Shown here: one piece after another, positions 5,345 through 52,181 of the stretch
Layout of the letters: each line of letters starts with the position of its first letter
Position numbering within the stretch: the stretch's first letter is position 1
DNA from: Candidatus Saccharimonadota bacterium
GTDB taxonomy: Bacteria; Patescibacteriota; Saccharimonadia; Saccharimonadales; Saccharimonadaceae
Reading direction: 5' to 3'
DNA: 64,000 nt
Assembly: GCA_027492735.1 (NCBI GenBank)
Contig: JAPUEE010000011.1
Coordinates: 1 to 64,000 of the forward strand
Translations under genes and position numbers: made by a program
The notes under the pieces: model-generated
What the model was told of the DNA's origin: nothing
Databases searched by the model: none
What the model saw: only the letters and a program-made list of their open reading frames with translations

Positions 5345-5366
5345 AATGTCAGACAATTGACATTTT
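5343..5366 (+). terminator. hairpin terminator
   Basis: AAAATGTCA (5343-5351) pairs with TGACATTTT (5358-5366) over a 6-nt loop, and the 3' arm supplies the T-run. It starts immediately at the end of the ART-like gene. Confidence 0.7.
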
Positions 5367-5424
5367 ATAATGATTATGCTAAAATGTATTTTGTACGATC
5401 TATATATAAAAAAGGAATCTCGTT

Positions 5425-5976
5425 ATGGCCCTATTTAGAAAACGTTCACCAGACACTACACCATTTACCCCTGTAGAATCAGAAACTACCTACAAGATTT
5501 TGGATACACTCCAGGCTTCGGATCTAGATCCGAAGGCAACGCTACTCGTCGGTAGCGCTGCCTTGGCTTTACATGGAGCAGTGCTGCATGCCGCTCCTGG
5601 TGAAACTCGCCCAGGCGACGTTGATTTACGAGTCACAACCACACTAGCTCAGGATATATTTGCCCAAGGGTCCTTCAATAGTGCGCCTATTACTATAAAA
5701 GATAACGGAAATCACAAAGCGATGACAGTGTTGCGTCTCGAGACTGCGCCGTTACCGATTGATTTGATTACTGCACCTCTCCATACAATGCGTCGCGAAT
5801 CCTACGACGCCAGGCTCGAAAAGAGAATTGCGGCCGCTCGTCCAATCGTAGGTACCAGGGGTTACCGTATTGTATCGCTCGATGATATCATTCGTGCGCA
5901 GAGGAATAATATGGATGACAAGTCGAGAGATGATCTAGCAAGCGCCTATGAGCTGCTCGTCAGACAGCGCTACTAG
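5425..5976 (+). CDS. nucleotidyltransferase-fold protein
   Basis: 183 residues. LLVGSAALALHG followed by RPGDVDLRV matches the G-S-x(n)-D-x-D metal-binding pattern of the pol-beta/MNT-AbiEii-like nucleotidyltransferase fold, and the C-terminal RIVSLDDIIRAQRNN...DDLASAYELL resembles the helical tail of such proteins. Some members are antitoxin or toxin components and others modify tRNA or antibiotics; I cannot tell which. AAAAAGGA precedes the start. It follows the ART-like gene but seems to have its own promoter region. Confidence 0.55.
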   Translation: MALFRKRSPDTTPFTPVESETTYKILDTLQASDLDPKATLLVGSAALALHGAVLHAAPGETRPGDVDLRVTTTLAQDIFAQGSFNSAPITIKDNGNHKAMTVLRLETAPLPIDLITAPLHTMRRESYDARLEKRIAAARPIVGTRGYRIVSLDDIIRAQRNNMDDKSRDDLASAYELLVRQRY

Positions 5977-6018: not shown

Positions 6019-6050
6019 TTGACACCAGGGGGGGGGGTAGGTGCTATATT
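6019..6050 (+). promoter_or_regulatory. promoter with a G10 tract in the spacer
   Basis: TTGACA (6019-6024) and an extended -10, TG-C-TATATT (6042-6050), are separated by 20 bp, longer than the usual 17. Ten consecutive G residues (6028-6037) lie inside that spacer. Slippage of the tract would change -35/-10 spacing; seven G would give 17 bp. It drives the collagen-like gene at 6117. Confidence 0.65.
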
Positions 6051-6116
6051 ATAAGCTATAACAATTTATAGCTCTATATAAAGAGAGAATATAGAAGAGA
6101 GAGAGGGAATCAAACC

Positions 6117-6812
6117 ATGACTCGTTTACCAACACCAGGCTCCGATGCAGGAGAGTGGGGCACTATCCTCAATGACTACCTATCCCAAGCCCATAACACA
6201 GACGGTACTCTAAAACCCGCTATTATTACCTCAACTAATCTAGCTCCAGGTGCGGTAACATCAGCCAATCTCTCCCAAGACATCCAAGACCAACTCGATA
6301 CCATAGCTGGCCAACAAGGTGCCACGGGTCCTACTGGCCCTGAAGGCGTTCAAGGTCTCCAGGGTGCTACCGGAGCACCAGGTCTCATTGGTTCAACAGG
6401 CCCCAGTGGCTCACCAGGTCAAGCAGGAGCTACCGGTGCAGCAGGTACACCAGGAAGTAATGGCGCTACAGGGGCAACAGGTCCCAGTGGTGCAAGTGGA
6501 ACACCAGGGATAGTTGGTGCAACGGGAGCAAGTGGACCTACGGGTACTCCAGGTTCACAAGGGGCAACTGGTCCATCAGGCCCTTCGGGAACACCAGGCA
6601 TAAATGGCACTAATGGACAAGATGGAGCGACGGGAGCGACGGGGCCGGCAGGAGCGACCGATATCAACGGCATCACTGGCCTTCGTAGCGAACTAGACAA
6701 CAAAGTCACCGGCCAAAACGGTACTACCGCCCTATGGATTGGTATACAAACCGAATACGACGCCCTACCAACCCATAATGCCACAACGCTGTATGTTGTG
6801 CGGGATGCCTAA
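6117..6812 (+). CDS. collagen-like Gly-X-Y repeat protein
   Basis: 231 residues. Residues 1-65 are LPTPGSDAGEWGTILNDYL-type sequence found at the base of tail-like and collagen-like proteins, about 66-180 are an uninterrupted run of Gly-X-Y triplets rich in GATGPTG and GTPG units, and the last 50 residues form a globular cap. Such triplets form trimeric triple helices in bacterial surface proteins and phage fibres. No signal peptide, membrane segment or sortase motif is visible. It sits 18 bp before the LamG protein gene and is probably cotranscribed with it. Confidence 0.85.
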   Translation: MTRLPTPGSDAGEWGTILNDYLSQAHNTDGTLKPAIITSTNLAPGAVTSANLSQDIQDQLDTIAGQQGATGPTGPEGVQGLQGATGAPGLIGSTGPSGSPGQAGATGAAGTPGSNGATGATGPSGASGTPGIVGATGASGPTGTPGSQGATGPSGPSGTPGINGTNGQDGATGATGPAGATDINGITGLRSELDNKVTGQNGTTALWIGIQTEYDALPTHNATTLYVVRDA

Positions 6813-40110: not shown

Positions 40111-40755
40111 ATGAGAATGGCAAGAGGGGAACGAGAAACCTGGGCGATAGATATTGACGATGTGTGTTTAGATTATGGTGGTGGGTTTACTCGCTTTAAT
40201 AATCGGGTTGGTTGGACATCTGGCATGAGGCCGCATGACTACAGCGAGCAATGGGGGCAGTTATGGGGGGGGGTCGGCTCGGAAGAAATAGCTAGACGGA
40301 CGACTTCTATGAATCGTGGCATGAATCCATTTTTGCGGCCGGTCAGAGATTCACAGCTAGCTCTCGCGGCTCTCGCGAAGCATCACGATTTAATAATACT
40401 AACCTCTAGGCCGAGGGATATTCATGAAATCACAAAATCGACTATAGACAGACATTTTCCTGATATATTTCGAGATATACGCTATCTCGAAGGTGGCTGG
40501 GGTGATCGAGGGGCTAACGAAGCAGTCACCAAAGGCGAAACTGCCATAGAGATCGGTGCTTCGACATTAGTTGATGATCAACCGCGCCATGCCATTGGCA
40601 TGGCTATGGCTGGTGGTGTTGGTCTATTGTTTGGCGGTAGTCAGTTAGCGGCCACTACTGTCTCGGACGAGGCCGGAGTAATAAAGGTGGCCACGTGGAG
40701 AGAGGTTCTAGATCATGCTGGAATCGAACCTGACTCAGCGCTTCCTCAGGACTAA
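40111..40755 (+). CDS. HAD-superfamily 5'-nucleotidase-like protein with G9 tract
   Basis: 214 residues. AIDIDDVCLDY is HAD motif I (D-x-D), LIILTSRPRD motif II, and GASTLVDDQPRHA motif IV, in the arrangement of NT5C-like (deoxy)ribonucleotidases. ATG 40117 has better spacing to GAGAAAGG than 40111. Nine consecutive G (40265-40273) encode Trp-Gly-Gly-Val about residue 52; a one-base slip would truncate the protein. The 3' end overlaps the convergent methylase by 21 bp. Confidence 0.7.
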   Translation: MRMARGERETWAIDIDDVCLDYGGGFTRFNNRVGWTSGMRPHDYSEQWGQLWGGVGSEEIARRTTSMNRGMNPFLRPVRDSQLALAALAKHHDLIILTSRPRDIHEITKSTIDRHFPDIFRDIRYLEGGWGDRGANEAVTKGETAIEIGASTLVDDQPRHAIGMAMAGGVGLLFGGSQLAATTVSDEAGVIKVATWREVLDHAGIEPDSALPQD

Positions 40756-41850: not shown

Positions 41851-41938
41851 GATGCCTATTGTAACAGTTTTATGATATGCGTACTAGCTAGGGTCGTCAT
41901 TGACATAGGTCAAAGGAAGAGGATATACTCTTTACTAT

Positions 41939-51656: not shown

Positions 51657-52181
51657 TCAGCAGGGGGGGGGGTTCTCCCCATCGAGGAACTCGAACAGCC
51701 GCTCGTCGAAGTCAGCTGTGACTTCGAGTTCGTCGTTTGCCCACTTGGAGCTGACGTTGCCGACGATCTCGGCTCCTCGCGGATCAGGGTTTGAATCCCC
51801 GACCAGGCCACTGATGACGTGACAGCTCCTTGAACGGATGTGGCGGTAGGCCCAGTTGAGAGCTGTGACCACATGGTCGGCCAGCTCGAAGTAGTCCTGG
51901 GCGCAGAGCAACTGCGTCTGGATATTCGCAGGCTGCTGGCGCAGCGCTGCGACATCGTGCTCGTTCGGCATGACGAAGCCGAACTTCGTGACCGGATTGC
52001 CGGTGTTGAACTGCGGCATCGGCTCACCGGTGAGGTGGACCGCGACGAACACTGAGCCGTCGCCACCTCCCGAGCCGATCAGCAGACCGTTGCTCGAGGC
52101 GACGAGTTTTCGCACGGCGACTTCTGCGAAGTCATTGTACTCGTTGTACACCGTCTCGATCGCATATGCAACCGAATCCAT
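51657..52181 (-). CDS. GC-rich orphan gene ending in a C10 tract
   Basis: 174 residues. AGGAAGGGA lies 8 nt before the ATG. The sequence (DSVAYAIETVYNEYNDFAEVAV, GLLIGSGGGDGSVFVAVHL, DYFELADHVVTALNWAYRHI in parts) matches no family I know; it looks globular and acidic. Codons are strongly GC-ending, unlike neighbours, suggesting transfer. Ten consecutive C on the coding strand (G run 51663-51672) encode the last Pro-Pro-Pro, so slippage would change only the extreme C-terminus. Confidence 0.65.
   Translation of the reverse strand: MDSVAYAIETVYNEYNDFAEVAVRKLVASSNGLLIGSGGGDGSVFVAVHLTGEPMPQFNTGNPVTKFGFVMPNEHDVAALRQQPANIQTQLLCAQDYFELADHVVTALNWAYRHIRSRSCHVISGLVGDSNPDPRGAEIVGNVSSKWANDELEVTADFDERLFEFLDGENPPPC

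Follow-up and report, generated by a model that had tools for sequence, protein, structure and literature searches.

The porA, fetA and opc genes of Neisseria meningitidis are the three genes named as carrying a homopolymer between the -35 and -10 promoter elements in the available portion of one account (PMC2791445). The poly-G tract of porA lies between -10 and -35, where 11 Gs give high expression and 10 Gs two-fold lower expression, and mononucleotide switching rises 100- to 1,000-fold in Neisseria mismatch-repair mutants (available excerpts of PMC3639595). Here we describe a promoter of this architecture in a Candidatus Saccharimonadota bacterium, on a 64-kb stretch of contig JAPUEE010000011.1 (the window; contig C11 of a genome of 816,744 bases in 26 contigs). 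Ten Gs occupy its spacer, upstream of a collagen-like gene and a LamG/beta-helix gene. Judging from sequence comparisons, it is likely one of a set of promoter-spacer phase switches, like those of porA and opc, that form a regulon in Saccharibacteria. Random gain or loss of Gs probably raises and lowers the expression of these surface-type genes in the cells.

Poly-G promoter spacers and the genes behind them

A base-by-base reading bore out the arrangement given in the preliminary description, TTGACA and an extended -10 element separated by 3 + 10 + 7 = 20 bp with ten Gs in the spacer. Counted on both strands, G runs in the window numbered 133 at length 4, 17 at length 5 and one at length 6, with none at 7-8, one at 9 and two at 10. 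The genome has 21 separate runs of at least nine Gs, where about 1.5 would be expected (a first-order model of the window gives 0.12 such runs per window, which was scaled to the genome). A strict promoter pattern, TTGACN{1,10}G8N{0,14}TANNNT, matched 13 distinct places in this genome (15 rows), and the reversed pattern used as a control matched none. The chance of finding TTGAC 1-10 bases upstream and TAnnnT 0-14 bases downstream is 0.0038 per random window position, or about 0.08 occurrences expected in 21 tracts versus 13 observed. A homopolymer between -35 and -10, the hallmark of the porA/opc class, was thereby found at window positions 6019-6050 and in 13 of the 21 tracts. Two further tracts, on contigs C18 and C24, have a weaker -35 and the same gene families behind them, for a total of 15 promoter tracts; the other six are inside or antisense to open frames, or lack a clear promoter. 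The window locus is one of many such copies in the genome, of which the preliminary description had seen one.

In order to survey the downstream genes, a profile (A1) was built on the N-terminal domain MTRLPTPGSDxGxWGxILNDYLS (the MTRLP N-domain) and type IV prepilins were located with PF07963. Ten genes carry the MTRLP N-domain, nine of them behind a tract of G9-G14, and a tract precedes four of the 11 prepilin matches. Two of the 15 promoter tracts are 43 bases from contig ends, and the genes that they precede are not visible there. Tract-free paralogues have spacers of exactly 18 bp (n = 4: the MTRLP gene at C4:103861 and the prepilins at window 41939, on C22 and at C18:39859), in a comparison made without the prepilin matches C18:22201, C5:124448 and C5:123612. 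Paralogues of the prepilin at window 41939 on contigs C13 and C21 carry poly-G spacers.

Several individual prepilin loci deserve mention. The prepilin at C5:120515, free of a G tract and left out of the fixed-paralogue count, has a 16-bp spacer containing T9 and may be another homopolymer switch. On contig C22 (2278), a G11 is followed within a few bases by a short prepilin-like stub (GFTIVELLS and a stop codon), perhaps a decayed prepilin cassette. The prepilin behind the C18:23187 tract is out of frame relative to its paralogues just past the hydrophobic start, reflecting either a pseudogene or an assembly error.

Table 1. Features of the poly-G promoter, its genes and the fixed promoters used for comparison (window coordinates)
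Feature	Position	Strand	Basis
-35 hexamer TTGACA	6019-6024	+	read from sequence
CCA between -35 and G tract	6025-6027	+	sequence
G10 homopolymer in promoter spacer, candidate slippage tract	6028-6037	+	one of the genome's 21 tracts of at least nine Gs
TAGGTGC, tract to -10 hexamer; TG of extended -10 at 6042-6043	6038-6044	+	sequence
Extended -10 TGCTATATT, including hexamer TATATT at 6045-6050	6042-6050	+	sequence
Collagen-like open reading frame (ORF), 231 amino acids, MTRLPTPGSD N-terminal domain; first gene behind tract	6117-6812	+	Pfam, profile A1
LamG-like / right-handed beta-helix ORF, 564 amino acids	6831-8525	+	Pfam
Ordinary fixed promoter TTGACA-N17-TAAAAT, before ORF 5425-5976	5357-5385	+	local yardstick
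Fixed TTGACA-N18-TATACT promoter of prepilin paralogue (ORF from 41939)	41900-41929	+	comparison

Pfam searches agreed with the earlier identification of the two genes behind the window promoter. The first matched Collagen (PF01391, E 3.1e-19) and the tail-tip-like Phage_tail_C (PF24243, E 6.9e-08), and the second matched Laminin_G_3 (E 2.8e-20) and, narrowly short of the cut-off, Beta_helix (E 1.6e-05). No terminator-like site was found on the + strand in the 18-nt gap between the two ORFs, and they are probably co-transcribed. No signal peptide was apparent in the MTRLP proteins upon inspection by eye. The nearby fixed promoter sits about 660 bases upstream of the poly-G promoter. Two other long runs in the window are not promoter tracts: a G9 at 40265-40273 within a 230-codon open frame, and a G10 at 51663-51672, read as C10 on the other strand, where it falls close to the 3' end of an open frame. 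Both are possible translational or C-terminal-switching contingency tracts.

Spacer length, tract-length differences and distribution among relatives

Non-homopolymer TTGACN/TAnnnT pairs, sought in 173,616 bases of the genome, peak at spacers of 17 (n = 14) and 18 (n = 6) bp, with about one per spacer in shuffles. Under the same rule, poly-G pairs occur at 18 (2), 19 (1), 20 (4), 21 (2), 22 (1) and 23 (1) bp. Around the working optimum of 17-18 bp seen in fixed promoters, tract spacers show the spread that marks the porA/opc class: 17-22 bp for 14 promoters of this genome assigned by hand, and mostly 15-19 bp in the family (89 sites, 80 stretches; the -10 closest to 17.5 bp was taken, a choice that favours ON states). 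As assembled, the tract promoters of this genome therefore often appear too long. Given this optimum, G7-G8 is the predicted ON state of the window promoter, and the G10 of the assembly is predicted to be a weak one; an altered helix in poly-G could shift the optimum by a base or two. Compensation between tract and leader length was considered and dropped because the correlation of tract length with the remainder of the spacer is only -0.10 (103 sites, 7 of 110 having been removed for weak hexamers).

The window genome is the only one of its genus among those compared, so length comparisons were made between paralogues. Tract length differs in eight of 17 same-genome paralogous promoter pairs with similar flanks, six of which, all from genome G238, are not independent of one another; examples are the window G10 and a G11 on C3, and G12 on C5 and G13 on C17. 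A relative (G279) has one paralogue with G9 and another with the interrupted tract GGAGGTGGG, both at 17-bp spacing; the interrupted tract is what a 'locked' copy would look like. In genus g2 an ortholog search yielded a huge paralogous family and not clean orthologues, and served the G279 comparison only. MutS domain I (MutS_I) was found in none of 295 family genomes, compared with 11 of 14 controls.

The strict pattern occurs in 51 of the 295 family genomes, in 23 of 61 genera, with the reversed control in five genomes. A phylum sample gave matches in 23 of 379 genomes (19 outside the family) and control matches in three. Multi-copy poly-G-spacer promoters were seen in other Patescibacteria families (genomes G396, G323 and G618); in G396 their flanks are near-identical and their tracts are G8-G10. 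A poly-C version gave 27 rows in 11 of the 51 positive family genomes (control, four rows); the same scan found no poly-C spacer promoter in the window genome. Genomes G072 and G028 have poly-C-spacer promoters (eight and five rows) beside poly-G ones.

Among 81 proteins downstream of family sites, Pfam identified Fib_succ_major (11), TIG (7), N_methyl (6), Collagen (5) and Flg_new (4). A crude hydrophobicity rule applied to 89 family sites gave 43 N-terminally hydrophobic products, seven prepilins, seven MTRLP proteins, 24 with no hydrophobic segment, one with a transmembrane segment elsewhere and seven truncated. No tract was present in the 22 upstream regions of MTRLP genes read from family genomes other than G075, G087, G140 and G152, and within those four some MTRLP copies are also tract-free. 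The switch is thus lineage-specific. One Saccharibacteria record has the MTRLP N-domain and lacks the tract; a scan of named genomes with the whole collagen-like protein returned 79 loci, was swamped by collagen repeats, and one locus was followed. G140:C14 and G087:C16, from genomes placed in different genera, share identical DNA over the MTRLP promoter and the N-terminal coding part, through either gene transfer or contamination.

Proposed mechanism and alternative explanations

It is hypothesized that the tract acts as a simple-sequence contingency element. Slipped-strand mispairing in replication would add or remove Gs and go uncorrected because MutS is absent; the resulting change in -35/-10 distance would alter the strength of the sigma-70-type promoter of the collagen-like/LamG operon. 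Most MTRLP-domain fibre-like proteins and some type IV prepilins would be under the joint control of about 15 such switches, varying independently, and the cells of a population would come to carry different surface sets. Slippage at the window locus would in this way affect its transcription, and the products may be displayed on the surface and be of benefit in host contact. The phase switch proposed in the preliminary description is supported by comparison, through recurrence, association with two gene families, fixed 17-18 bp spacers elsewhere, paralogue length differences, the interrupted copy and the lack of MutS, with one amendment: at the assembled 20 bp the promoter is predicted to be weak or OFF, not active. 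To a broader hypothesis we assign roughly even chances: a regulator-free combinatorial phasome in Saccharibacteria, and scattered other Patescibacteria, in which some 15 independently slipping poly-G spacers over fibre-like proteins and prepilins, hypermutable by MutS loss, diversify the host-facing surface so that clonal epibionts bet-hedge on host strain.

Several observations weigh against phase switching of a surface regulon. The 24 of 89 family-site products without a hydrophobic segment under the crude rule, and tracts in a genome of another genus (G020) before housekeeping-looking DeoC-type aldolase and Methyltransf_4 genes, make the 'surface regulon' a bias and not a rule. In 244 of the 295 family genomes no promoter match was found although MutS was found in none, so that lacking MutS is not enough on its own to produce tracts. 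For the window locus, represented by the assembly of one strain, tract-length variation is a prediction made from paralogues. Lastly, owing to the extended -10, some promoter activity may persist at any spacer length.

The equality of tract lengths in the other nine of 17 paralogue pairs, a further point against switching, is also what would be expected if the G tract were a fixed regulatory spacer, through A-form-like DNA or a protein or G-rich binding site, that tunes or coordinates a promoter class without switching. The same architecture at many promoters fits such a spacer too. However, the distance from the tract to -35 and -10 differs among sites, tracts range from G8 to G17, paralogues of the same genes use ordinary-sequence 18-bp spacers, and poly-C replaces poly-G in some relatives; we regard this explanation as unlikely. 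Neutral drift, in which homopolymers expand anywhere once mismatch repair is lost and those in promoters have little effect because the extended -10 carries the promoter, is quite improbable. The absence of MutS throughout the family, the six tracts of this genome outside promoters and the 52 tracts of at least nine Gs in G020 are as drift would have it, but placement of 13 of 21 tracts exactly between -35 and -10, the strong gene-family bias and the many MutS-less genomes without such a promoter are not.

It is very doubtful that misassembly or sequencing error produced the length of a real tract or the repeated promoter: five of the 15 promoter tracts are no more than about 170 bases away from a contig end, and yet the architecture recurs in dozens of other assemblies and the contig ends fall where paralogues have common 5' coding or leader sequence. 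Exact tract lengths in the assembly are nevertheless uncertain. A prophage tail-fibre gene was rejected, as its neighbours look ordinarily chromosomal by eye and copies are scattered over the genome. The collagen part of the first ORF matches PHROG tail fibres, a match that any Gly-X-Y repeat might give, and the MTRLP N-domain alone had no match in PHROG. In a phage collection this N-domain (window 6117-6296) occurred only in six Streptomyces phage records, of which two bear the annotation collagen repeat protein. Actinobacteria are the hosts of cultured Saccharibacteria.

Comparison with known phase-variable systems

In word searches of the available text of saccharibacterial pili, strain and genetics papers (PMC12206443, PMC9040727, PMC10633639), neither phase variation nor homopolymers came up. 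A search of PMC literature for phase variation in Saccharibacteria likewise found none, which is not proof of absence; one match concerns an intragenic repeat in a Gracilibacterium, and the others appear off topic. The mechanism itself is known from porA, fetA and opc; set against this search, the novelty is that one tiny genome uses it at about 15 promoters and that it recurs across the family. Its interest lies in scale and host biology. Poly-G switches on fibre-like proteins and pilins would offer a concrete explanation, inexpensive to test, of how obligate epibionts with less than 1 Mb of DNA alter their contacts with the host. Existing metagenome reads allow tract lengths to be counted, and cultured Saccharibacteria have reporter and knockout tools available (PMC10633639, available portion).

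Three described systems resemble this one in part. With type IV pili T4P-1 and T4P-2 of Nanosynbacter lyticus, the latter of which contributes to host binding according to the available text of PMC12206443, the likeness lies in the PF07963 prepilins behind four tracts of the window genome. The phasomes of Campylobacter and Helicobacter likewise combine, so far as the available sources go, a small genome with many G/C tracts that affect surface traits, but those tracts are reportedly often intragenic, with frameshift ON/OFF switching, whereas here they are mostly in promoter spacers. The third system is that of porA, fetA and opc, with a G or C homopolymer in the promoter spacer of a surface protein (available portions of PMC2791445 and PMC3639595). 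The difference is that here about 15 promoters of one 0.8-Mb genome share the design, in a lineage without MutS.
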